Source: Rhodoferax aquaticus (GTDB lineage: Bacteria > Pseudomonadota > Gammaproteobacteria > Burkholderiales > Burkholderiaceae_C). Taken from it: a stretch of 64,000 bases of DNA. The notes under the pieces are model-generated. The model was not told the origin of the DNA and ran no database searches. It saw only the letters and a program-made list of their open reading frames with translations. Where the stretch lies: NCBI RefSeq assembly GCF_006974105.1, contig NZ_CP036282.1, forward strand, positions 186,001 to 250,000. Direction: 5' to 3'. This document shows, in pieces, positions 37,951 through 52,442 of this stretch (its first letter is position 1; the number at the start of each line of letters is the position of its first letter). A program made the translations under genes and the position numbers.

Positions 37951-37986
37951 AAAGTGCCCCGACGGATGTTTGGGCACTTTTTTTTT
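37951..37986 (+). terminator. intrinsic terminator after sucCD
   Basis: AAAGTGCCC, a 12-base loop and GGGCACTTT followed by further T bases. It ends sucCD just before the TerC gene. Confidence 0.92.
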
Positions 37987-38005
37987 GACACGATACGAGG
38001 TGGGT

Positions 38006-38689
38006 ATGGAGCTCTTAGCAAGCGCGGATTTTTGGATCAGTCTGATCGAAATCGTCTGGATCAACATCATTCTGTCCGGAGACAACGCTGTTGTGATCGC
38101 ACTGGCAGCACGTTCGCTGCCTGCCGAGCAGCAGAAAAAAGCCGTAATGTTTGGTTCTGGGGCTGCGGTAATCTTGCGCGTGGGCCTCACCTTGGTCGCC
38201 GCCACACTTATGCAACTGCCCTACTTGCAAATCGTGGGGGGGTTACTCCTGCTGTGGATTGGGGTGCAACTGATCACCGGTGAAGAAGGCGGTGAAGGCG
38301 AGTCAAGTACTACCAGTTCCCTCATGGGCGCTGTGCGCACCATATTGATCGCAGACTTGGTCATGAGTTTGGATAACGTCATTGCCGTCGCTGCCACGGC
38401 CCATGGCAATATGGTCCTTCTTGTGTTGGGCCTAGCAATTAGCATTCCTCTGGTGATCTTCGGGAGCACATTGATGATACGCATCATGGAGCGCTTCCCA
38501 TTTATCGTGACGCTAGGCGCTGCTTTGATTGGCTGGGTGGCTGGCGGAACGATTGTGAGCGACGTCTCCTTGCAGGCGCAGTTGGCAAGCTATCACTGGC
38601 TGCACTACGTGGCTGCGGCAGTGGGGGCGATCGCCGTGCTGGGTATCGCAAGCCTAGTCAAACGCAAAAACGCGTCAGCGCCCGTTTGA
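38006..38689 (+). CDS. TerC/YjbE-family membrane protein
   Basis: A 227-residue protein with about seven hydrophobic segments. The two acidic motifs of the family are ILSGDNAVVIALAAR (about residues 18-32) and DLVMSLDNVIAVAATAHG (about 115-132). Relatives act in metal, particularly manganese, handling at the membrane. ATG 38006 is preferred with CGAGG at 37995-38000. Unlike the second TerC gene at 51.5 kb, no riboswitch precedes it. Confidence 0.88.
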   Translation: MELLASADFWISLIEIVWINIILSGDNAVVIALAARSLPAEQQKKAVMFGSGAAVILRVGLTLVAATLMQLPYLQIVGGLLLLWIGVQLITGEEGGEGESSTTSSLMGAVRTILIADLVMSLDNVIAVAATAHGNMVLLVLGLAISIPLVIFGSTLMIRIMERFPFIVTLGAALIGWVAGGTIVSDVSLQAQLASYHWLHYVAAAVGAIAVLGIASLVKRKNASAPV

Positions 38690-38876: not shown

Positions 38877-41522
38877 GTGGCGACATCATCTTCAAAAAAA
38901 TCAGTCGGTTTCTGGAAAACAGATTGGTTTGCTGGCTTGGCCATCGTGATTGCTGTGTTGGCCCTGCATGTGGGGACCGATTTCATTGGCGTGCTGGAGC
39001 GCAAGTTTTACGACTACGCCAGCACTACCACGACACGCCAACCGTCTGATCGCATTGCAGTCATTGCGATCGACGACCAAAGCATCGCCAATATAGGGCG
39101 CTGGCCTTGGCCGCGTAGCGTGCACGCCAAGCTCATTGACAAGTTGGCAGAAGCCAAAGCCAAGACCATTGTTCAGACCACCTTCTTTTTTGAGCCCCAG
39201 GTTGATCCTGGCTTGGCATTCATTCGCCAGATGAAGCAAGCGCTGGAGGCCGGTGCTGACGCGGGAGCAACAAACACACAACTCGCCCAAATCATTGCCA
39301 ACGCAGAGTTGAGCTTGGACTCTGACTCAGTGTTGGCGGCAAGCATCAAGAACGCGGGCAATGTCTTGCTGCCATCCACCTTCATCTTGGGCAACCCACA
39401 AGGCAACGCTGACAGCGCCTTACCTCCCTATGTGTTGGCCAGCACGATCAAAGACGCCAACGGTTATTCCATACCCGCAGTACGCGGCCAGTACCCGATT
39501 GAGTCGATGGGTGCCGCTGCGCAAGGGGTTGGTCACTTAAACCAATTCCCTGATGTCGATGGCGCAGTGCGCACCGAACCCTTGCTGGTCAACTACTACG
39601 GAAATGACGTGCCGTCCATGGCGCTATTGGCCGCAGCCAAAAGTCTGAACCTCACCGCTGATGATGTGAAACTCAATGCGGGTGAGTCTGTGCAGCTTGG
39701 TAAGCTGCGTGTGCAGACCGATGAGGCTGCATTGATGTTGCCCCAGTTCTATCGAGGCAAAGACGGGAAGCCGGCGTTTGCCGTGGACTCCTTCTTTGAC
39801 GTACTCAATGGCAATATACCTGCCAGCAAATACGCCAACAAAATCGTCATCATTGGTGCGACCGCAGCAGGTGTTGGAGTGCAGTTTCCTGTGCCAGGCA
39901 ACCCAGCGTTGTCGCCTGCTGAGACCATTGCACACATCACCTCCAGCATTTTGAATGAGCATTTCATTGTTCAGCCAGCTTGGGGCCTGTGGGCAACACT
40001 GGGGCTGTTTCTTGTCGTGGTAGCCTATGTGCTAGCTGGAATACCTCGGCTCTCGGCAGGTGTGGCCGCTAGCGTGACTCTGACCGGCTTCCTAGCGCTA
40101 CTTGTGACCGAATTTTTGCTCTTGTCCAATGGGGCGATCTGGCTCAAATTGGTGTTCCCGGCAGCGCTGCTCGCCATGGGCCATCTTGCATTGACTACCA
40201 AACGATTTCTGGTCACAGAAGCCGGCAAATTGAAGTCAGATGAAGAGTCCGCCGAGACCAATCGCATGATGGGGCTGGCTCTACAGGGGCAAGGGCAACT
40301 AGACATGGCGTTTGACCGGTTTCGGCGCGTGCCCATGGGCGCTGATGTCATGGAAAACCTTTACACACTGGCCCTAGACTTTGAGCGCAAGCGCCAGTTC
40401 AACAAGGCTGGGGCGGTTTACGAGCACATGGCTGCCTACGACAAGTCGTACAAAGATATACAAGCCAAAATCAATCGCGCCAAGAATCTCTCTGAGACCG
40501 TCATGCTGGGAGGTGCTTCAGGGCACCTAGGTGGCACCATGTTGCTGAACGAAGGGGCTGTCGAAAAGCCCATGTTAGGGCGCTACCAAGTCGAGCGCGA
40601 ATTGGGCAAGGGCGCGATGGGGGTCGTTTACGCAGGCAAAGACCCCAAAATTGGGCGCGTTGTCGCGATCAAGACCATGGCCTTGAGCCAAGAATTCGCC
40701 GGCGACGAGTTGGTGGATGCCCGAGAACGGTTCTTCCGGGAAGCCGAGACTGCTGGGCGCCTTCAGCATCAAAACATCGTCACGATTTTTGATGCGGGCG
40801 AAGAGCACGATCTGGCCTACATAGCCATGGAGTTTTTGAAAGGGAAAGATTTGTCGGAACACTGCAAGTCCGACAACTTGCTCCCGGTGTCCACAGTGCT
40901 CAGCATTGTTGAACGTGTGGCACAAGCCTTGGCCTATGCCCACCGCCAAAGCGTTGTCCATCGTGACATCAAGCCCGCCAATATCATGTACGAGATGCAA
41001 AGCGATACCGTCAAGGTCACCGACTTTGGCATCGCTCGTATTACGGACTCTAGTAAAACAAAGACGGGATTGGTGCTGGGTACGCCTAGCTTTATGTCGC
41101 CCGAGCAGTTGGCGGGCAAAAAAGTGGATGGCCGGTCGGATCTGTATTCGCTGGGCGTCATGCTGTTTCAATTACTTGCTGGGGTGCTTCCCTTCCGAGG
41201 GGAATCGATGGCGGAGCTGATGTATAAAATTGCCAATACAGAGGCAGCAGACATTAGGACGGTCAGGCCGGAACTTTCTGCAGCCTTGGCAGCCGTGGTT
41301 GCCAAGGCCTTGGTCAAAACACCGGAACTCAGATACCAAAATGGACAGGAATTTGCCGATGACCTTCACGGGGCCATGAACGCCAGCCCGACGGTTGCCG
41401 CTTCAGCTACTGCAAGCCTGGACGCACCGGCCAAAGAAGGCGCTTTTGAACGCACCGTCTCTTCGTTTGCACAGCATACGATTCCTATGGTGCCCAAAGG
41501 TACTACCGATATTGAAATATAA
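38877..41522 (+). CDS. CHASE2-domain serine/threonine protein kinase
   Basis: An 881-residue membrane kinase. Residues about 20-40 cross the membrane; a large CHASE2 sensor follows (IAVIAIDDQSIANIGRWPWPR at about 60-80); three membrane helices lie at about 362-440; a TPR-like helical stretch (about 465-540) leads to the kinase domain (from about 566). Kinase motifs: glycine loop GKGAMGVVYAG, Lys in AIKTMAL, HRDIKPANI (about 694), DFG (about 715), GTPSFMSPEQ. All catalytic residues are present. The start is GTG 38877 with GAAGG upstream. It leads the signalling operon; PP2C starts four bases after its stop. Confidence 0.93.
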   Translation: MATSSSKKSVGFWKTDWFAGLAIVIAVLALHVGTDFIGVLERKFYDYASTTTTRQPSDRIAVIAIDDQSIANIGRWPWPRSVHAKLIDKLAEAKAKTIVQTTFFFEPQVDPGLAFIRQMKQALEAGADAGATNTQLAQIIANAELSLDSDSVLAASIKNAGNVLLPSTFILGNPQGNADSALPPYVLASTIKDANGYSIPAVRGQYPIESMGAAAQGVGHLNQFPDVDGAVRTEPLLVNYYGNDVPSMALLAAAKSLNLTADDVKLNAGESVQLGKLRVQTDEAALMLPQFYRGKDGKPAFAVDSFFDVLNGNIPASKYANKIVIIGATAAGVGVQFPVPGNPALSPAETIAHITSSILNEHFIVQPAWGLWATLGLFLVVVAYVLAGIPRLSAGVAASVTLTGFLALLVTEFLLLSNGAIWLKLVFPAALLAMGHLALTTKRFLVTEAGKLKSDEESAETNRMMGLALQGQGQLDMAFDRFRRVPMGADVMENLYTLALDFERKRQFNKAGAVYEHMAAYDKSYKDIQAKINRAKNLSETVMLGGASGHLGGTMLLNEGAVEKPMLGRYQVERELGKGAMGVVYAGKDPKIGRVVAIKTMALSQEFAGDELVDARERFFREAETAGRLQHQNIVTIFDAGEEHDLAYIAMEFLKGKDLSEHCKSDNLLPVSTVLSIVERVAQALAYAHRQSVVHRDIKPANIMYEMQSDTVKVTDFGIARITDSSKTKTGLVLGTPSFMSPEQLAGKKVDGRSDLYSLGVMLFQLLAGVLPFRGESMAELMYKIANTEAADIRTVRPELSAALAAVVAKALVKTPELRYQNGQEFADDLHGAMNASPTVAASATASLDAPAKEGAFERTVSSFAQHTIPMVPKGTTDIEI

Positions 41523-41526
41523 GAAC

Positions 41527-42312
41527 ATGAAGTACAGCTTCTACGCAAAGACAGATCCGGGGCGGGCGCGAGAAAACAACGAAGACTCTGTCGTCTTCGA
41601 CGATGCGACCCATGTTGCTGTCCTCGCAGATGGAATGGGGGGCTACAACGCGGGTGAAATAGCCAGTGGCATGGCGACTGCATTCATCAAATCAGAGCTC
41701 CATCGCTGGTTGCTGGAGGTTAGTGCTGATGCGTCAGATCGAGACGTCAGACGGGCCGTAGAGCTGTGCGTTGAGAATGCCAACCGATCGATCTTCAACG
41801 CCGCAAACTCCAATAACCAGTACACAGGGATGGGGACCACACTGGTAGTTGGCGTTTTTCGGGGGCGCAAGCTGTTGCTAGGCCACATCGGCGACTCGCG
41901 TTGCTACCGGCTGCGCGCCGGGATCCTCACGCAAATCACCAAGGATCATTCCCTCTTGCAAGAGCAGATTGATGCGGGTTTACTGACAGCTGCACAGGCC
42001 GTCAACTCCCCTATCAAGAACTTGGTTACGCGCGCCTTGGGCGTGGATGAGGTTGTGTTGCTTGAGATCCATGAGCATGTTGTCGAAACTGGTGACCTCT
42101 ATGTCATGTGTTCTGATGGGCTGTCTGATATGGTCGACGATGAGGCGATCGCTAAAATCATATCCACGGACAGAGATTTGCAGCAAATGTCAGATGCTTT
42201 GGTGAACGCTGCCAATGACGGTGGGGGCCGTGACAACATCTCTGTGCTGATGGTGGGGGTGACCGAATCGGCCGAAAAACGCGGGCTTATCGCAAGATGG
42301 CTTGGCAAATAA
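41527..42312 (+). CDS. PP2C-type serine/threonine protein phosphatase
   Basis: A 261-residue soluble phosphatase. Metal motifs are intact: ARENNEDS near the start, ADGMGGYNAGEIASG (about residues 33-47), HIGDSRCYRLR, CSDGLSDMVDD and the final GGRDNISVLMV. ATG 41527 lies four bases after the kinase stop; the longer frame from 41395 overlaps the kinase gene. It is the natural antagonist of the preceding kinase. Confidence 0.93.
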   Translation: MKYSFYAKTDPGRARENNEDSVVFDDATHVAVLADGMGGYNAGEIASGMATAFIKSELHRWLLEVSADASDRDVRRAVELCVENANRSIFNAANSNNQYTGMGTTLVVGVFRGRKLLLGHIGDSRCYRLRAGILTQITKDHSLLQEQIDAGLLTAAQAVNSPIKNLVTRALGVDEVVLLEIHEHVVETGDLYVMCSDGLSDMVDDEAIAKIISTDRDLQQMSDALVNAANDGGGRDNISVLMVGVTESAEKRGLIARWLGK

Positions 42313-42359
42313 ACATATAACGTGTTTTCACAATTCAATTATGTAAGAAGGGGTCGGTC

Positions 42360-43037
42360 ATGCCAAAAATGATCGTGTCGATCGATGAGGTCGTAATCAA
42401 AGAAGTTCAACTCACCAAGGACAGAACGACCTTGGGGCGTCGGCCGTACAACGACATCGTGATCGACAATCTCGCAGTGAGCGGCGAGCATGCTGTCCTG
42501 CAGATGACCGGTGGTGACGTTGTTTTGGAAGACTTAAACAGCACCAATGGCACCTATCTCAATGGCAAGGCAATCAAAAAGCAACAACTCCAAAACGGTG
42601 ACACGGTAGAAGTTGGCAAGTACAAGATCAAGTTCGTTGGCGACAGCGCAGCCAATAACTTTGACAAAACCATGGTCGTCATGGCGCGCCCAGCGGGTGC
42701 TAAGGCTGTGTCAGGGCTTGCCAGTGCAACGTCTAACGCCCCCACCGTCATGAGTGACTCGTCGGGCATGGGTGCTTTTCATGCCGCCATTAAAGTCTTG
42801 TCGGGTACTGCGTCTGGCAGAGAGGTCCCACTCACCAAGGTGGTAACCACAGTCGGCAAGCCAGGCGTCGCTGTTGCAGCCATTACCCGCCGCCAGGCCG
42901 GGTTTGTGGTGCACCATGTCGAGGGCGCTGGCAATCCTACATTGAATGGGGCGCCGATCAACCAAACACCTGTTGCGCTCAAGTCAGGTGATGTGATCGA
43001 GCTTGCGGGAACCAAGATGCAGTTCATGCTGCTGTAA
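42360..43037 (+). CDS. double FHA-domain protein
   Basis: A 225-residue protein. The first FHA domain (about residues 1-95) has every phosphothreonine-binding residue: LGRRPYNDIVID, SGEHA and LNSTNGTYLNG. A Thr/Ser-rich linker (about 100-140) contains TMVV and several Thr that could be phosphorylated. The second domain (about 143-225) has FHA spacing (TTVGKPG, NPTLNGAPI, LKSGDVIELAG) but lacks the Arg and the Ser-x-x-His, so it probably cannot bind phosphopeptide. It likely is the read-out adaptor of the kinase. It lies 47 bases after the phosphatase gene. Confidence 0.9.
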   Translation: MPKMIVSIDEVVIKEVQLTKDRTTLGRRPYNDIVIDNLAVSGEHAVLQMTGGDVVLEDLNSTNGTYLNGKAIKKQQLQNGDTVEVGKYKIKFVGDSAANNFDKTMVVMARPAGAKAVSGLASATSNAPTVMSDSSGMGAFHAAIKVLSGTASGREVPLTKVVTTVGKPGVAVAAITRRQAGFVVHHVEGAGNPTLNGAPINQTPVALKSGDVIELAGTKMQFMLL

Positions 43038-43091
43038 GCAGCTCTTTGGGCCTGCTTGTTCAAGCACCATGTTTTGCACGGGCAGCGCCCT

Positions 43092-45332
43092 ATGAAGGCC
43101 ATTTCCAAGCATTGGGCCAGAATTGCGGTCACCTTGCTGCCGTTGTTCTTGGCGCTACTGCACGCTGTGGGCATGTTGCCCATCGGTGTTATTGGGCAGC
43201 TAGACAATGCCATCTACGACGCGCGGCTGCGGGCCACCAGTCCTAAGACATTGGACAAACGCATTGTCATTGTTGATATTGACGAAAAAAGCTTAGCTGC
43301 AGTTGGGCACTGGCCATGGGGCCGTCATCGCTTGGCAGAGTTGGTGAACCAGTTGTTTGAGCAGCACCACATCGCCCTGCTAGGGTTTGACGTGGTGTTT
43401 GCCGAAGAGGACGACAGCTCCGGGCTGAAAACCCTCAAGGCGCTTGCAGACCATGAACTCAAAGCCTCTCCCGAGTTCGCCCGGGCCTTGGAAAAGATAG
43501 AGCCCACCTTAGATTTTGACGCCGCGTTCGCTAAGGCCCTGGCTTCAAGGCCCATTGTGTTGGGCTACTACCTTAACCAAGGCAAAGCTTCAGGCGTGCT
43601 GCCGGCACCTGCGCTGCCCTTGGAGGCACTGCAAGGGCGCAAACTGCCTTCAACGCAATGGCGTGGCTACGGCTCCAACATTGCAGCATTGGCCGCTGCT
43701 GCCCCACGTGCGGGGCATTTCAACACCCTGCCTGACGCAGATGGGCTGGTTCGCTCCTTGCCCATGTTGGCCGAGGTCCAGGGCCAAAACTACGAGTCAT
43801 TGTCCTTGGCCATGTTCCGGTACTTGGCCGGATCACCAGACCTAAGGCCGGGCTTCACCTCGGACCGTTTCTTCTCACGCACCTACCAGACGGTGGACCG
43901 CTTGCTGTTGCAAGTGGGTGAAAAATCGCTTGCGGTACCTGTGGATGAGCGCCTTTCCTCACTGGTGCCGTACCGAGGCCCAGGTGGCCCAACGGGAAAC
44001 TCGTTTCAGTACGTGTCGGCGGTGGATGTGCTAGAAAACCGCGTCCCTGCTGACACTTTGCGGGACAAGATTGTCTTGTTAGGCACAACGGCACCGGGTT
44101 TGCTGGACCTGCGGGCCACCCCTGTCGGGGAAGCCTATCCGGGGGTGGAGGTGCACGCCAACGCTATTTCTGGGTTCTTAGATGGCAAGATATTGGTCAA
44201 GCCTGACTACGCTTTGGGCTATGAAGTGGTGGTGTTGCTCTTATCGGGGTTGATCCTGGCTTTTGGCCTGCCATTGCTCGCGGCCCCTATGGCCGTTGGG
44301 CTCAGTGTTGCTGTGTTGGCAGGCCTTACCGCGCTGAATTTTTGGCTTTATACCCAGTTCGGTTTGGTGTTGCCGCTGGCTTCGAGCTTGTGTATGGCCT
44401 TTACTGCTTTTGCGTTGAACATGAGTTACGGCTACTTTGTGGAAAGCCGGGCCAAGCGTGATTTGGCCAACCTTTTTGGAACTTATGTGCCGCCCGAGCT
44501 CGTCGACGAAATGCTGAAAGAGCCCGAGAGTTACAGCATGCAGGCCACCAATCGGGAACTGACGGTCATGTTTTGCGACATGCGCGGGTTCACGAAGATG
44601 TCGGAAAGCATGCCCCCTACCGAACTTCAAGCCCTGCTCACGGGCGTTTTTGGCAAGCTGACCGACATCATTCGCAGTAACCTTGGCACGATCGACAAAT
44701 ACATGGGCGACTGCGTCATGGCATTTTGGGGGGCGCCTGTGGAGTCTTCGCAGCATGCCCAGTTGGCCGTGAAGGCCGCTTTGGAAATGGCGCAGGCAGT
44801 CCACACCATCAATGCCGAGCACCGCGCACGGGGCTTACCCGAAATCGGCATCGGAATCGGCTTGAACACCGGAGTCATGTGCGTGGGCGATATGGGCTCC
44901 CATATCCGCAAGAGCTACACCGTCATTGGGGATGCAGTGAATCTGGCATCGCGTCTAGAAGGCCTGTCCAAGGTCTACGCAACCGACATTGTGGCCAGCG
45001 AGTCCACACGCAAGCAGGCCGGCGCAATGCTATGGCAAGAGTTAGACAAAGTTCGCGTCAAGGGCAAAGACCAAGCGGTTGCTATCTTTAGGCCCATGCA
45101 GGGGACCATCGAGGGGAGCTTCACTACCCAAGACGCGCTCAAGCTGTGGGGGCAGTTTCTCAAGGCCTACCGTGCGCAGCAATGGGACCAAGCGGATGTT
45201 GCTTTGTTGAACTTGCAAAGACAAGACGCTACCAATGCCTTGTATCGTTTGTATGTGGAGCGGGTGGCCACCTTGCGCCTGTTGCCGTTTGACCCGCATT
45301 GGGACGGTGCGACCAACTTCGAAACCAAATAA
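43092..45332 (+). CDS. CHASE2-domain adenylate/guanylate cyclase (class III)
   Basis: About 746 residues. An N-terminal membrane helix, a CHASE2 sensor (IVIVDIDEKSLAAVGHWPWGR at about 58-78), three membrane helices (about 375-455) and a class III cyclase domain (about 490-670). Both metal Asp are present: VMFCDMRGFTKM (about 492) and YMGDCVMAFWGAP; the transition-state Asn-Arg pair is in GDAVNLASRLEG and the purine-selecting Lys is likely in HIRKSYTVIGD. ATG 43092 is preferred, although TTG 43056 is possible and no clear ribosome site decides it. The same sensor type as the kinase suggests a common signal. Confidence 0.92.
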   Translation: MKAISKHWARIAVTLLPLFLALLHAVGMLPIGVIGQLDNAIYDARLRATSPKTLDKRIVIVDIDEKSLAAVGHWPWGRHRLAELVNQLFEQHHIALLGFDVVFAEEDDSSGLKTLKALADHELKASPEFARALEKIEPTLDFDAAFAKALASRPIVLGYYLNQGKASGVLPAPALPLEALQGRKLPSTQWRGYGSNIAALAAAAPRAGHFNTLPDADGLVRSLPMLAEVQGQNYESLSLAMFRYLAGSPDLRPGFTSDRFFSRTYQTVDRLLLQVGEKSLAVPVDERLSSLVPYRGPGGPTGNSFQYVSAVDVLENRVPADTLRDKIVLLGTTAPGLLDLRATPVGEAYPGVEVHANAISGFLDGKILVKPDYALGYEVVVLLLSGLILAFGLPLLAAPMAVGLSVAVLAGLTALNFWLYTQFGLVLPLASSLCMAFTAFALNMSYGYFVESRAKRDLANLFGTYVPPELVDEMLKEPESYSMQATNRELTVMFCDMRGFTKMSESMPPTELQALLTGVFGKLTDIIRSNLGTIDKYMGDCVMAFWGAPVESSQHAQLAVKAALEMAQAVHTINAEHRARGLPEIGIGIGLNTGVMCVGDMGSHIRKSYTVIGDAVNLASRLEGLSKVYATDIVASESTRKQAGAMLWQELDKVRVKGKDQAVAIFRPMQGTIEGSFTTQDALKLWGQFLKAYRAQQWDQADVALLNLQRQDATNALYRLYVERVATLRLLPFDPHWDGATNFETK

Positions 45333-45341
45333 GACCAAACT

Positions 45342-46133
45342 ATGAAGATACGCGTGTTGGGGTGTTCCGGTGCCATAGCCAAAGACTGCCGAACCACGTC
45401 GTTCTTGGTCGGGGATGATGTCTTGGTGGATGCTGGCACGGGTGTGGGAGATCTCACTTTGGAGCAAATGCGCCGCATTGACCATGTGCTGCTCACGCAT
45501 TCGCACTTGGACCATGTCGCAGCCTTGCCTCTGATGGTGGATGCCACTGCGTCGCAACGCCAACAGCCCGTGACCATCCACGCCTTGGCTGGCACCATCG
45601 CCGCCTTGAAAGCCCATATCTTTAACAACGTCATATGGCCTGACTTCAGCGCAATTCCCTCGGTCGCCGCACCGTTTATACGCTTTAGCGAGATCACTAT
45701 TGGGCAAACGCTGCAACTGGGTGCTACAACTATTGAAGTGCTCCCCGCCGTACACACGGTGCCTGCAGCAGGGTTTGCCATCAGCCAAGGGCAAGGGTAC
45801 TGGGTGTTCACCGGTGATACAGAAAAGAACCCTGCGCTTTGGCAGCGCCTCAATCAGCTCGATGTGTCCATGCTGGTCATCGAAACAGCGTTTAGCAACC
45901 GTGAAAGCAAACTGGCCGAAGACAGCCTGCATCTCTCGCCACGCGCCTTAGCGCAAGAGTTGGACTGCATTGCACCAGGCAAGCAGTTCCCCATCTACAT
46001 CACCCATACCAAGCCGGCTGAAACCGAGCAAATCATGAACGAAATTCAGCGGTTTGACCAAACCCAGCCCATGGGCGCGCATGTGAGCCACGATATTCGC
46101 TGGTTGCGTGCTGGCCAGGAGTTCGAACTATGA
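45342..46133 (+). CDS. metallo-beta-lactamase-fold cyclic-nucleotide phosphodiesterase (class II type)
   Basis: A 263-residue hydrolase. The metal motif HSHLDHVAALPL (about residue 51) has the T-H-S-H-L-D-H pattern of class II cAMP phosphodiesterases; the later ligands are in VHTVPAAG, FTGDTEKNPALW and ITHTKPAE. There is no signal peptide, so it is cytoplasmic. The gene is ten bases after the cyclase and overlaps the ATPase gene by four. The pairing with a cyclase makes cAMP the most likely substrate; this is inference. Confidence 0.85.
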   Translation: MKIRVLGCSGAIAKDCRTTSFLVGDDVLVDAGTGVGDLTLEQMRRIDHVLLTHSHLDHVAALPLMVDATASQRQQPVTIHALAGTIAALKAHIFNNVIWPDFSAIPSVAAPFIRFSEITIGQTLQLGATTIEVLPAVHTVPAAGFAISQGQGYWVFTGDTEKNPALWQRLNQLDVSMLVIETAFSNRESKLAEDSLHLSPRALAQELDCIAPGKQFPIYITHTKPAETEQIMNEIQRFDQTQPMGAHVSHDIRWLRAGQEFEL

Positions 46134-48550
46134 GCGACACCAAAACCGCAGCCGTGGCAGCCAAGGCAGCGGAACTCGCGTTTTACGAGTCGCAAAAGTT
46201 GCCCTCCAAAAAACGCGGCGTCACCTTTGAGGCCTTGTTTTATAGGCAACTGCACCATGTCACCGCCCGTATCCACGACACGGAAAACATCGAGCAAATC
46301 ATGCTCGAAACCAGTAAAGACATTTGCAAACTGCTCAATGCCGACCGGCTCACGCTTTACGCGGTGAGCCCTGATGGGGCGTCCATCGTCTCCAAGGTAA
46401 AAACCGGCCTTAACACCACCAGCGACCTCAAGCTCCCGATTACCCCCCAAAGCATTGCAGGCTACGCAGCCTTCAGCCGCGCACCGTTGAACTTAGCTGA
46501 TGTGTACGACGATGCAGCGCTCAAGCAAATTCATCCTTCGCTCAGTTTCTTAAAGCTGGTGGATACGCGCTCAGGCTACCGTACCCGACAAATGCTGGTA
46601 GCCCCCATCTTGGACGGAGACAGGCTGCATGGCGTACTGCAGGTCATCAACAGCAAAAGCGATGAGCCCTTTGGAGACCTAGAGGTCGATGGTGTCACTG
46701 AACTGTGCAAAACCCTGGCAACCGCCATGCGCCAGCGCGCAGCGCGAGCGGAAGAGGGGGCGCGTAAAAAAGCGACCAAGTTTGATGGCTTGGTAGCCGA
46801 AGGCATTCTGACCGACGCCGAACTGGGCCAGTGCATTCAAGACGCGCGCAACGAGGGCACCCATGTAGAGCACCTGCTGATGGCGCAGTACAAAATCAAG
46901 CCACAACAAATTGGGCCATCACTCTCCAAGTTCTTTGGCGTGCCGTACGAGCCTTTTGTCTCTAGCCGCATCCGTTCCGAAACACTGCACGGTGCGCTTA
47001 AGCGAGAGTTCATTGACGAACAAGGTTGGGTGCCCTTGGAGGAGTCGCCTGCGGGGCTGGTCATCATGTGCGTGGACCCAGAAGCCGTGCGTGGCTCACG
47101 CGTGGTGCCGCAGGTGTTCCCGCGAATCACCAAATTTGCCTACCGAGTCACCACGCAAACCGAGTTTCAAGAAACCTTAGCCCAGTTGTTTGGTGGCGCA
47201 GCAGACAGCAGCACCATTGACCAACTGTTGGCCGACATGGACGGCGGCCCTATTGATGATGGGTCTAACGACGACTCCTTAGAGTCTGCCGCGGCCGACA
47301 ATGAGCTCGTCAAGTTTGTGAACAAGGTGATCATTGATGCCTATAACCAAAAGGTGTCTGACATCCACATCGAGCCCATGCCGGGTAAGTTCAAGACTGG
47401 CATCCGCTTTCGCATTGACGGCACCTTGGTCCCGTATGTGGAAGTGCCGGCCCACTTTAGGCAGGCCATGGTCACACGCCTCAAGATCATGTGCGACCTA
47501 GACATCTCAGAGCGCCGCAAGCCGCAAGACGGAAAAATCAAGTTCAAAAAGTACGGTCCCTTGGACATTGAGCTGCGGGTTGCCACCATTCCTTCGGCAG
47601 GCGGAGTTGAAGATGTGGTCATGCGTATCTTGGCGGCGGGCGAGCCCATACCGCTGGACAAGCTAGGCCTCACGCCCCACAACAAAGAGCGTGTCATTCG
47701 CACCATCGAAAAACCCTATGGTTTGTTCTACGTGTGCGGCCCCACGGGCTCTGGCAAAACCACCACGCTGCACTCAATCCTCAAACACCTTAACACGCCA
47801 GACACCAAAATCTGGACCGCCGAAGACCCGGTAGAAATCACGCAAAAAGGCCTGCGCCAAGTTCAAATCAACCGCAAAGCGGGCATTGACTTCGCCTTGG
47901 TCATGCGGGCGTTTTTGCGTGCCGACCCCGACATCATCATGGTGGGTGAGTCGCGCGACAAAGAAACCGTGGCCATGGGCGTGGAGGCCTCGCTTACCGG
48001 CCACTTGGTGTTTTCCACCCTGCATACCAACTCGGCACCAGAGTCCATCACACGCTTGCTAGACATGGGCATGGACCCGTTTAACTTTGCCGACGCCCTC
48101 TTGGGCATCTTGGCCCAGCGCTTGGCCAAAAAGCTCTGTGACTGCAAGCAAGCCTATGTGCCCGACGCCGAAGAACTTACGCTATTCGCGGCGGAGTACG
48201 CCGAAGAACTCCGCCACAGCGTCGCCTGGAAGCGCGACCACGTTGGCGAAGCGCAAAAGCTCATGGCAAGCTGGCAGACCAGCTACGGCCAAGAAGGCAA
48301 ACTGCACTTCTACCGCGCCGTAGGCTGCGCCAAATGCAACCAAACTGGTTACAAAGGCCGCATAGGCTTGCATGAGTTGCTGATTGCGGACGATGGCATC
48401 AAACGCTTGATCCAAGAACGCGCCCGGGTGGCAGAGCTATTTGCTGCCTCAGTAGAAGGCGGCATGCGCACCCTCAAGATGGACGGCATGGAAAAAGTCA
48501 TGATGGGTTTGACCGACATCAAAATGGTTCGGCAGGTGTGCATCAAGTAA
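46130..48550 (+). CDS. GspE/PilB-family secretion or pilus assembly ATPase with N-terminal GAF domain
   Basis: An 806-residue ATPase. Residues about 45-205 form a GAF domain (IEQIMLETSKDICKLLNADRLTLY through VAPILDGDRLHGVLQVIN). A MshEN-type segment follows (about 220-350). The T2SE core has Walker A CGPTGSGKTTT (about 536-545), Asp box TAEDPVEITQKG, Walker B DPDIIMVGESRD and the His box STLHTNSAPES. The tetra-Cys zinc motif (CDCK ... CAKCNQTG) is intact. It differs from plain PilB by the GAF module. The gene ends the signalling operon, 189 bases before pilA. Confidence 0.93.
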   Translation: MSDTKTAAVAAKAAELAFYESQKLPSKKRGVTFEALFYRQLHHVTARIHDTENIEQIMLETSKDICKLLNADRLTLYAVSPDGASIVSKVKTGLNTTSDLKLPITPQSIAGYAAFSRAPLNLADVYDDAALKQIHPSLSFLKLVDTRSGYRTRQMLVAPILDGDRLHGVLQVINSKSDEPFGDLEVDGVTELCKTLATAMRQRAARAEEGARKKATKFDGLVAEGILTDAELGQCIQDARNEGTHVEHLLMAQYKIKPQQIGPSLSKFFGVPYEPFVSSRIRSETLHGALKREFIDEQGWVPLEESPAGLVIMCVDPEAVRGSRVVPQVFPRITKFAYRVTTQTEFQETLAQLFGGAADSSTIDQLLADMDGGPIDDGSNDDSLESAAADNELVKFVNKVIIDAYNQKVSDIHIEPMPGKFKTGIRFRIDGTLVPYVEVPAHFRQAMVTRLKIMCDLDISERRKPQDGKIKFKKYGPLDIELRVATIPSAGGVEDVVMRILAAGEPIPLDKLGLTPHNKERVIRTIEKPYGLFYVCGPTGSGKTTTLHSILKHLNTPDTKIWTAEDPVEITQKGLRQVQINRKAGIDFALVMRAFLRADPDIIMVGESRDKETVAMGVEASLTGHLVFSTLHTNSAPESITRLLDMGMDPFNFADALLGILAQRLAKKLCDCKQAYVPDAEELTLFAAEYAEELRHSVAWKRDHVGEAQKLMASWQTSYGQEGKLHFYRAVGCAKCNQTGYKGRIGLHELLIADDGIKRLIQERARVAELFAASVEGGMRTLKMDGMEKVMMGLTDIKMVRQVCIK

Positions 48551-48739: not shown

Positions 48740-49270
48740 ATGAAGCGTTCTATGCAAAAGGGTTTTACCCTGATCGAATTGATGATCGTGGTTGCGATCA
48801 TCGGTATCTTGGCCGCCGTGGCATTGCCTGCGTATCAAGATTACACCTCACGCGCACAAGCGACTGAAGGCGTGAGCTTGTTGGCGGGTTTGAAGATTCC
48901 AACCTCTGAAGCTTTGTCCAACAATGCCTTGGCTCAAGCTTGCAGCACTGATAAGTCTGTGGCAGAAGTTGCTGAAGTTAAGGATGGTAACGGCGTTGTC
49001 ACTACAGCTTACGTGGCCCCAAAAATCGCTGGAGCCCTGGCAGTTGAAAATAATGTCGTATTGTCGGGTAAATACGTGGAGAAAATTGAAGCTTCTGTTG
49101 TTGGAACAACTTGCGCATTGACAGCAACATTCCGCGCCACAGGCGTAGCCGATAAGCTGACGGGTAAAAAAATTCGCTTTACCTATGACCCAGCTAACGG
49201 TAGCTGGATTTGCACTACCAATGTCAACGCATCTATTCGTCCTAAGACCTGCAGCGAAGGCGCAGTCTAA
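48740..49270 (+). CDS. pilA: type IV pilin (PilA-like)
   Basis: A 176-residue type IVa pilin. The leader is seven residues plus Gly (MKRSMQKG), cut before [21 protein letters not shown], with the conserved Glu5 of the mature protein. The globular part contains a Cys near residue 64 and a C-terminal pair enclosing a disulfide loop (WICTTN through KTCSEG). AAGGAG sits seven bases before the ATG. It has its own sigma-54 promoter and terminator, so it is a single-gene unit behind the GAF-ATPase operon. Confidence 0.95.
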
Positions 49271-51528: not shown

Positions 51529-52236
51529 TCAAGCAGATGGCTGGGCCGCGCCTTTGCGCTGGGCCAGCCAGCCCGCCAACAAAACGCCCGCGACAGCCAA
51601 GGTGTACACCCCCCAGCGGGCAGCTGTTTGCAGGGTGTCGCCGGGGTCGCTAGGTGTTCCGAAGAGACCTGACAAAAACGGCTCCGCCACAATCATTTTT
51701 GCAGCCGTAAACGCCAGCACTGCAGAGCCCAACTGAATGATGATGGGAAAGCGCTCCACCAATTTCAAAACGACCGTGCTGCCGAAGACTACGATGGGCA
51801 CGCTAATCACCAAGCCAATGATGACCAAGTCAAACGACCCGTGGGCAGCACCCGCGACGCCTAAAACGTTGTCAATGCCCATCAACGCGTCGGCCACGAT
51901 GATGGTTTTCATGGCCGCCCAAAAGGTGTACACCGCTGGTCCGTCATGTTCATCATCCGACTGGTCAGCGAGCAACTTGTAGGCAATCCACACCAGACCC
52001 AGTCCGCCGACCAGCATCAGCCCGGGTATCTTTAGCAGCCAAACAACGCCTACGGTCATCGTTGACCTAACCACAATAGCGCCCACGGTCCCCCACACAA
52101 TCGCTTTTTGCTTCAAATGGGGGGGCAACTGGCGTGCCGCAAGTGCGATAACGATGGCGTTGTCACCTGCTAAGACTAAGTCGATCAGTACGATGGCCAG
52201 CAGGGCCGACCACCAAGGGGCAGAAAAGAGTTCCAC
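51529..52236 (-). CDS. TerC-family membrane protein under a manganese riboswitch
   Basis: A 235-residue membrane protein with about seven hydrophobic segments and the family acidic motifs VLAGDNAIVIALAARQL and DALMGIDNVLGVAGAAHG. The start is taken as GTG 52236, since AAGGATATACC precedes it on the minus strand; a longer open frame to 52416 runs back through the riboswitch and is rejected. The upstream yybP-ykoY-type aptamer points to induction by manganese, so export or handling of manganese (or support of such a protein) is likely. Confidence 0.88.
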   Translation of the reverse strand: MELFSAPWWSALLAIVLIDLVLAGDNAIVIALAARQLPPHLKQKAIVWGTVGAIVVRSTMTVGVVWLLKIPGLMLVGGLGLVWIAYKLLADQSDDEHDGPAVYTFWAAMKTIIVADALMGIDNVLGVAGAAHGSFDLVIIGLVISVPIVVFGSTVVLKLVERFPIIIQLGSAVLAFTAAKMIVAEPFLSGLFGTPSDPGDTLQTAARWGVYTLAVAGVLLAGWLAQRKGAAQPSA

Positions 52237-52320
52237 GGTATATCCTTCAAATGCAGTGTTAGACAACACCGAAGCAGATAGGAACGTGATGGCAAAAAAC
52301 CTTCGCGCGCTGCACTGCCC

Positions 52321-52442
52321 GGTGCACGGCGAAGGTCTTGCTCGAAAGACGAGGCCTGCAAGGCCTTGGCTTTCTGATGTGCCGGGAGGGTCACAGACCC
52401 GCCGTATTGACGACACACCAACAAAAGGAGCTACTCCCCTTC
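52321..52442 (-). ncRNA. yybP-ykoY-type (Mn2+) riboswitch
   Basis: Read on the minus strand the leader shows the hallmarks in order: GGGGAGTAGC (plus-strand 52430-52439), then GTGTCGTCAATACGGCGGG, then a GACCCTCCCGGC stretch and finally AAGACCTTCGCC (plus-strand complement at 52328-52340). These are the conserved blocks of the yybP-ykoY aptamer, and the gene behind it is TerC, a classic target. The rest of the gap to 52600 holds only the start region of the divergent gene. Confidence 0.8.

Follow-up and report, generated by a model that had tools for sequence, protein, structure and literature searches.

A Conserved Kinase–Phosphatase–FHA–Cyclase–Phosphodiesterase Cassette beside an Accessory Type IV Pilus-Type Motor ATPase in Rhodoferax aquaticus and Other Burkholderiales

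Introduction

In the PpkA–PppA–Fha pathway of the type VI secretion system (T6SS), a membrane Ser/Thr kinase, a PP2C phosphatase and an FHA protein are encoded beside an export machine. The same triad adjoins an export-type machine in Rhodoferax aquaticus, within the 64,000-nucleotide stretch of contig NZ_CP036282.1 that is analysed here (the window). Positions 38,877 to 48,550 of the window hold a six-gene cassette that encodes, in order, a Ser/Thr protein kinase (STPK) with a CHASE2 sensor, a PP2C phosphatase, an FHA protein, a CHASE2-bearing class III adenylate cyclase (AC), a class II-type cyclic-nucleotide phosphodiesterase (PDE) and a GAF-bearing motor ATPase. The parts are of known kinds and their combination is new within the literature matches listed, none of which describes it by title or abstract; as subscription journals are thinly covered, this absence carries little weight. 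Through the cassette, threonine phosphorylation and cyclic AMP (cAMP) may both act on a single accessory motor ATPase of the type IV pilus type, a reading held with somewhat less than even confidence. It builds on features read directly from the genomes: the gene order and its conservation, the catalytic residues of the four enzymes, the phosphothreonine (pThr) site of the first FHA domain (FHA1) and the CyaB2-like contact residues of the GAF domain.

In the accessible text of two T6SS reports, Fha of Agrobacterium binds phosphorylated TssL (PMC3953482) and PpkA of Acidovorax acts via Fha (PMC12607579). The cassette differs from this pathway in that its immediate neighbours are not T6SS genes (a T6SS elsewhere in the genome was not searched for), a CHASE2 sensor is fused to the kinase, the short FHA protein has a degenerate second FHA domain, and a cyclase, a PDE and a T2SSE-type motor belong to the block. 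A second comparison is with OdhI and GarA, whose FHA domains are the closest solved folds and likewise adjoin a candidate kinase-site motif. The available part of one study describes unphosphorylated OdhI as binding and inhibiting its enzyme target, an interaction abolished upon phosphorylation by PknG (PMC9769921). However, the OdhI site is N-terminal (Thr14), unlike the motif here, which follows the FHA domain; the FHA protein of the cassette also has a second FHA-like domain, and its predicted target is a pilus motor. At 63.6 bits, it stays under the OdhI cut-off of NCBIfam (200 bits).

An archaeal precedent exists in the archaellum network, in which the FHA protein ArnA, the kinases ArnC and ArnD and a PP2A phosphatase control a type IV pilus-related machine (PMC4307647). 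Unlike the cassette, this network acts on archaellum gene expression, and no cAMP branch is mentioned in the accessible part of that report. For the cAMP branch, the counterparts are the GAF domains of CyaB2 and of PDE2, 5, 6 and 10, which resemble the motor GAF in sequence profile and pocket residues; the latter is single rather than tandem, is carried on a pilus-type ATPase and aligns with the final DE of the NKFDE motif out of register. The motor itself shares the MshEN–T2SSE architecture and Cys motif of PilB and TfpB but has an extra GAF domain and scores below the PilB, GspE and TfpB cut-offs. A Ramlibacter genome paper describes three PilB paralogues, and its available text holds no match for FHA, CHASE2 or adenylate cyclase (PMC3164672).

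Organization and Conservation of the Cassette

Open reading frame (ORF) calls bear out the preliminary description of six same-strand genes, separated by gaps of 4, 47, 54 and 9 bases and then a 4-base overlap, with pilA behind them. Pfam agrees with its assignment of the CHASE2–kinase, PP2C, CHASE2–cyclase, PDE and GAF–ATPase domains (Table 1). An alternative TTG start of the cyclase is possible at 43,056. No terminator-like site was found on the + strand in the gaps among the six genes; as the scan barely rose above shuffled sequence (21 vs 14.7 ± 4.3), co-transcription is inferred from the gaps and from conservation.

Conservation was assessed in a near-relative set of 61 genomes, the window's own included, and in an evenly drawn order sample of 150 Burkholderiales genomes from 92 genera. 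The GAF–MshEN part of the motor is present in 33 of the 61 near genomes (15/25 genera) and in 70 of the 150 (41/92 genera). One of these 70 is the window's genome; of the 69 other loci fetched, nine were cut upstream by a contig end and two had no full ATPase (L192, L193), leaving 58 assessable loci, which were annotated by profiles made from orthologues. All five signalling genes precede the ATPase in window order in 33 of the 58, one of these having its ATPase cut by a contig end. These loci span 17 families and 20 genera, the window's own not counted, and the order thus extends beyond close relatives, contrary to what would have refuted the earlier proposal. No departure from the gene order was seen in the 58 loci. 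Minimum protein identity to the window is 37% for FHA, 42% for the kinase, 44% for the PDE, 45% for both PP2C and the cyclase, and 56% for the ATPase. Sampling at class level (232 genomes) added seven with a relative of the ATPase N-terminal half, at about 30% identity.

The gene content of the 58 loci varies. All six genes are found in 32 (plus the one with a cut ATPase), PP2C–FHA–PDE–ATPase in 10, PDE–ATPase in four and kinase–PP2C–FHA–PDE–ATPase in three. PP2C–FHA–ATPase, cyclase–PDE–ATPase and the ATPase alone occur twice each, and two other types once each. By gene, the PDE is present in 53 loci, PP2C and FHA in 50 each, and the kinase and the cyclase in 37 each. In four genomes of one family (f16), the PDE is the sole gene kept before the motor.

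A FastTree phylogeny was built from 125 ATPases, and 106 untruncated, FHA-bearing loci, both named and sampled, were used for traits; truncated loci and those without a local FHA gene (L107, L162, L165, L182, L183, L184, L186 and L190) were left out. All five signalling genes are present in 60 of the 106, PP2C–FHA only in 19, PP2C–FHA–PDE in 13, kinase–PP2C–FHA–PDE in five, kinase–PP2C–FHA in three, kinase–PP2C–FHA–cyclase in two, FHA only in two and other sets in two. The fewest changes on the tree are 13 for the kinase, 15 for the cyclase, nine for the PDE and two for PP2C. Kinase and cyclase occur together in 62 loci and are both missing from 34, with the kinase only in eight and the cyclase only in two. 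Where independent pairs differ by the kinase, the cyclase changes with it in about six of nine and never in the opposite direction (median p 0.031, range 0.031–0.0625). This is one of five pair tests on the ATPase tree, all uncorrected; the others are not significant (kinase–motif and any-kinase–motif p 0.25 each, cyclase–PDE 0.5, kinase–PDE 0.625). Cyclase remnants of 55 residues (L012) and 38 residues (L015) lie between the FHA and PDE genes, which suggests loss through deletion.

The two branches are separable, as many loci hold PP2C–FHA–motor only and a few hold PDE–motor only. In a single case (L194, same family as the window, without a motor at 1e-20), the phospho branch has outlived the motor: STPK, PP2C, FHA and PDE genes are followed directly by a pilin gene (Pfam Pilin 1.3e-13), and the cyclase gene there keeps its CHASE2 domain with the catalytic motifs gone. 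The separate loss of branches in many loci, the phospho genes and PDE of L194, and a GAF constraint that is unlinked to the local cyclase (see below) are what would be expected if two independent regulators merely shared an operon, the phospho branch acting on the pilin or other targets, cAMP acting on a Crp-type regulator and the GAF domain binding something else. This explanation is judged rather unlikely, given that kinase and cyclase losses tend to coincide, that the PDE accompanies the motor so widely, in four loci as the only remaining gene of the set, and that every motor GAF carries an arginine which is absent from control GAFs.

The cAMP Branch and the GAF Domain of the Motor

The proposed convergence of cAMP on the motor would involve three proteins of the cassette. 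In the cyclase, the metal-binding Asp pair, the adenine-type Lys and Thr, and the Asn and Arg are invariant in 71/71 sequences; in class III cyclases the Lys and Thr residues select ATP. The HxHxDH motif of the PDE is invariant in 96/96 sequences. This protein scores 60.7 bits against the PDEase_II cut-off of 23.7, with Lactamase_B_2 scoring higher (71.3), and it lies under the NCBIfam equivalog for cyclic nucleotide-degrading PDEs (39.9 of 400 bits), so that its substrate is inferred.

When a profile of the motor GAF was compared with all solved chains, the best match was CyaB2, an adenylyl cyclase of Anabaena, through its tandem GAF (1ykd, 1.5e-37). The next matches are mostly PDE5 (1.3e-17), PDE6, PDE2 and PDE10, interspersed with a single GAF-HD-GYP protein (1.9e-17). 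In the accessible text of the CyaB2 study, the cAMP contacts of GAFb are R291, T293, D356, N359 and I308, and an I308A substitution halved cAMP binding (PMC4411481). Through an hmmsearch alignment, these map to R73, T75, D145, S/T148 and V90 of the motor GAF, respectively. R73, D145 and S/T148 are conserved in 125/125 motor GAFs and T75 in 124/125, and position 90 is hydrophobic in 125/125; the R, T and D are also kept in the seven class-level homologues. At positions of the NKFDE motif, N174 and F181 are invariant and K176 is present in 95/125. As a control, 40 GAF proteins encoded directly downstream of motors were examined, of which 37 bear an HD-GYP motif. At the Arg position, 33 of these have Gly or Ala, and seven give no motif match. 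These alignments support the earlier proposal that the GAF domain reads a cyclic nucleotide, and the motor GAF likely binds cAMP. The action of cAMP on the motor is the best-supported part of the two-input model.

It had also been proposed that both branches answer to one envelope signal. The joint presence or absence of kinase and cyclase lends this weak support. The sequences of their CHASE2 domains diverge, however, with 29% identity in the window and a mean of 27% across loci, compared with 52% and 54% within the two groups, and the idea of duplicated CHASE2 sensors sharing one signal is unsupported by sequence. The host genome encodes further CHASE2 proteins at G000:C1:1324312-1326093 (a second CHASE2-cyclase) and G000:C1:86114-87115.

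In nine of 67 order loci, a protein of 350–390 amino acids (aa) is encoded between the PDE and the motor (e.g., L100:9285-10373, - strand). The two inserted proteins that were scanned have cyclic-nucleotide-binding and rhodanese domains. Such inserts are confined to four families (f3, f11, f14 and f25), and when 67 genomes were searched with one of these proteins, nothing further matched at 1e-15; the window's genome has no match. The protein always occurs with a cyclase (9/9 vs 31/56, p 0.01, uncorrected for kinship and with some of the 56 truncated). In L106 and L165, about 3 kb between the PDE and the motor holds a FecR-like gene and no cyclic-nucleotide-binding gene, together in L106 with a TPR/outer-membrane-like gene recognized by eye.

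The Phospho Branch: Kinase, Phosphatase and FHA Protein

The enzymes of the phospho branch also retain their catalytic residues. The catalytic Lys, HRDxKPxN, DFG and activation-loop TxT of the STPK are invariant in 71 sequences, and the Asp-containing core motifs of PP2C are kept in at least 98% of 113 sequences. All six pThr-site residues of FHA1 (G26, R27, S41, H44, N63 and G64) are invariant in 116/116 sequences, and its best solved matches are the OdhI and GarA FHA domains (Foldseek 8p5x, 6i2r, 4qcj). The model of the FHA protein has two confident β-rich domains joined by a low-confidence linker. The preliminary description of a double FHA protein therefore holds only by half. FHA1 is canonical; the second β-rich domain keeps a conserved GKPG but is missing the Ser and His of the SxxH of FHA1 and has no Pfam match.

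Right behind FHA1, the linker of most orthologues has the motif F[DE]KTM[VIL], which reads FDKTM in the window and lies in the low-confidence segment. The kinases show comparable motifs: some have FEKTV in the C-tail, and LSETV occurs in the juxtamembrane segment. Thr860 of the STPK is present in 34/34 sequences having a residue there, and [DE][KR]T[MV] is found in 19/75 STPKs, once outside the tail. The linker motif was counted in 117 FHA proteins minus three truncated loci. Local genes were accepted from half length upward, with L052 (a kinase without CHASE2) and L189 scored as having a kinase and L159 (a fragment) as having none. In its loose form the motif accompanies 69/75 loci with a local kinase vs 18/39 without; in its strict form the counts are 67/75 vs 18/39. 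Whole-genome searches of the kinase-less loci returned a PknB-like kinase elsewhere (E ≤ 1e-40) in 13/18 with the motif and 1/21 without it. Some Pkinase match exists in all 30 genomes checked for it, so a distant kinase could serve the kinase-less loci that bear the motif. Relocation rather than loss of the kinase was considered and set aside: a CHASE2-kinase is found elsewhere in G058 (58%), G172 (56%) and, as a partial copy with an internal stop, G205 (57%), and in none of the searched kinase-less genomes of the window's family.

The FHA1 residues are also invariant in the 21 loci that lack both a local kinase and the motif. In 18 of these, the gene behind FHA (or behind the PDE or cyclase) is the motor; the others (L195–L197) have no motor. 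This invariance without kinase or motif, together with the OdhI and GarA matches, suggests a partner that the FHA1 face would bind independently of phosphorylation.

Alternatively, the triad could work as a scaffold in the manner of the T6SS, with the FHA protein or the motor as the kinase substrate, the FHA–pThr complex activating the motor (cf. PpkA–Fha) and cAMP acting separately. Beyond the shared triad, the intact pThr residues of FHA1 and the candidate pThr motifs in the kinase tail and FHA linker would suit such a scheme. It is considered rather unlikely, since a conserved threonine motif of the FHA-linker type was not found in the ATPase (8/127 sequences) and the pairing of FHA and motor survives without the kinase and, in L083 and L093, without both kinase and phosphatase.

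The Motor ATPase and Its Probable Link to the Pilus

The Walker A motif and four Cys residues (670, 672, 733 and 736) of the motor are invariant in 75 sequences. The motor's scores fall short of the NCBIfam cut-offs for PilB (465.8 of 675.65 bits), GspE (429.5 of 630.25) and TfpB (381.6 of 850). Elsewhere, the host genome encodes a PilB (L115, 805.4 of 675.65 bits), a GspE in a separate locus (L116, 656.5 of 630.25) and a TfpB (L114, G000:C1:2919000-2931000, 898.8 of 850) that stands alone, away from pilBCD. An ATPase beside pilin-like genes (L117) is MshE-like by its setting, and L118 and L119 hold more distant superfamily paralogues. As the host already has PilB and TfpB and the GAF motor lies under all three cut-offs, the latter is an extra, unnamed kind of motor. 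In c-di-GMP (cyclic di-GMP)-binding MshEN domains the motif is RLGxxLV...Q. Binding of c-di-GMP by the MshEN-like domain was rejected upon alignment inspection, as the RLG motif is absent and the consensus is KYDxLV.

A pilus or secretion machine had been proposed as the target, and the evidence sides with the pilus. A T4a-type prepilin N-terminus is found by pattern match no more than 6 kb downstream of the motor in 35/67 order loci, and it stands directly behind the motor in the window. That the motor drives a type II-like secretion machine instead is highly improbable. In favour of this are its best Foldseek matches, which are GspE, and its scores under the PilB, GspE and TfpB cut-offs; against it stand the downstream prepilins and the host's own GspE, which scores above its cut-off from a separate locus.

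The prepilin behind the motor is often preceded by a GAF-HD-GYP gene of the c-di-GMP phosphodiesterase type. Such a gene lies behind the motor in L100 (L100:5277-6869, - strand), L101, L148 and L110, and behind the PDE in L198. GAF genes of this sort are found behind the motor in 40 sampled loci, as a third second-messenger branch that is absent from the window.

A Proposed Two-Input Model and Its Weak Points

In the proposed mechanism, the unphosphorylated FHA protein would dock through its FHA1 face onto the motor and restrain it. Upon an envelope cue, the CHASE2 kinase would phosphorylate Thr104 of the FDKTM motif, right behind FHA1. FHA1 would then bind its own pThr and release the motor, as with OdhI and GarA, and PP2C would reset the system. 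In parallel, the CHASE2 cyclase would produce cAMP, which the PDE, whose gene overlaps that of the motor, would clear locally. Binding of cAMP to the motor GAF would alter ATPase activity, and the extra motor, beside PilB and TfpB, would extend pili of the neighbouring PilA. The OdhI-like direction of the phospho step is the least supported part of this model.

A more specific reading is that the cassette represents a new class of pilus motor, in which an FHA protein of the OdhI/GarA type clamps an extension ATPase that doubles as a cAMP receptor. The kinase, phosphatase, cyclase and PDE of the operon would gate this single motor post-translationally through two inputs, and the cyclic-nucleotide-binding/rhodanese protein would be a second cAMP reader in some families. 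Taken jointly, these proposals are tentative and, on balance, doubtful.

Several findings weigh against the model. In the cAMP branch, the control GAFs share the T (the 33 with a motif match) and the D (40/40), leaving the Arg as the sole discriminating residue of the motor GAF, and T293A is described in the accessible text as leaving the cAMP affinity of CyaB2 unchanged (PMC4411481). Relaxation of the GAF in the absence of the cyclase was looked for and not seen: GAF/core divergence is 3.17 vs 3.64, with no relaxation in 22 loci without AC and PDE compared with 28 complete ones. The GAF domain thus does not depend on the local cyclase, and non-local cAMP or another ligand must be allowed for. 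The core of the ATPase is poorly modelled, with predicted local distance difference test (pLDDT) values below 50 in parts. In the phospho branch, most of the 13 distant kinases match in the kinase domain only and sit in distant families; as these are richer in kinases anyway, kinship confounds the count of 13/18 vs 1/21. The link between kinase and motif comes down to about four informative independent pairs, which point in the same direction (median p 0.25), and L062, L064, L068, L094 and L109 hold the motif without a kinase at 1e-40. The motor occurs without a local FHA gene in 8/58 loci; of these eight genomes, three encode an FHA homologue at another site and the remaining five lack one at 1e-20. 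Lastly, the phospho genes kept without a motor in L194 suggest that this branch may have another target.

Features and Neighbourhood of the Cassette

The host genome is a single contig of 4.74 Mb, and its close named relatives are mainly Rhodoferax. The sucC, sucD and TerC genes lie 5′ of the block, and an M48 peptidase gene lies 3′ of pilA. TerC-like genes stand on both sides of the block in opposing orientations (37,970–38,689, + strand; 51,529–52,416, - strand, the latter assigned by sequence alone), and this flanking pair is seen again in several relatives. An anti-phage role for the cassette was rejected. Only generic domain matches were obtained, for the kinase (PD-T4-6, mad6 and others) and the cyclase (PycC), and defence-specific models gave no match at 1e-10 for the other four proteins.

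Table 1. Positions of the cassette genes, their domains and candidate sites in the window.
Feature	Position	Strand	Basis
CHASE2–Ser/Thr kinase (STPK), 881 aa	38877..41522	+	Pfam CHASE2 1.3e-50, Pkinase 5.9e-54
Thr541 in juxtamembrane LSETV motif of STPK, candidate phosphosite	40497..40499	+	Thr in 65/71 sequences
ERTV motif in STPK C-tail (FEKTV in relatives), candidate phosphosite, FHA-linker-like	41448..41459	+	Thr860
PP2C phosphatase, 261 aa, Stp1/IreP type	41527..42312	+	Pfam PP2C; NCBIfam NF033484 241.6 bits vs cut-off 230
FHA protein, 225 aa	42360..43037	+	Pfam FHA 5.8e-25
FHA1, canonical pThr-binding domain	42426..42617	+	pThr-site residues; OdhI/GarA matches
DKTM motif (Thr104) in linker right after FHA1, candidate kinase target	42663..42674	+	Motif counts
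Second FHA-like domain, degenerate	42783..43034	+	No Pfam match; GKPG kept, SxxH absent
CHASE2–class III adenylate cyclase (AC), 746 aa	43092..45332	+	Pfam CHASE2 2.9e-58, Guanylate_cyc 7.6e-23
MBL-fold class II-type cyclic-nucleotide phosphodiesterase (PDE), 263 aa	45342..46133	+	PDEase_II 1.8e-16; also Lactamase_B_2
GAF–MshEN–T2SSE motor ATPase, 806 aa	46130..48550	+	T2SSE 1.9e-111, GAF 2e-12, MshEN 5.6e-7
GAF domain of motor, likely cAMP receptor	46289..46726	+	CyaB2 GAF 1ykd 1.5e-37; R73, T75, D145
MshEN-like domain, probably without c-di-GMP site	46934..47200	+	PilB/PilF N domains best, 2.1e-6 (profile); RLG absent
pilA, T4a-type major pilin	48740..49270	+	Pilin 1.3e-14, N_methyl 2.4e-10

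Conclusions

If the two-input model is true, cAMP would act directly on pili at the motor, and not only via transcription. Similarly, type IV pili would join type VI secretion and central metabolism as processes governed by Ser/Thr kinase–FHA logic. The model offers two specific residues, R73 in the GAF domain and Thr104 in the FHA protein, for testing in free-living Rhodoferax or Curvibacter. The conserved locus would also predict a role for an unnamed family of accessory ATPases where PilB and TfpB are already encoded.

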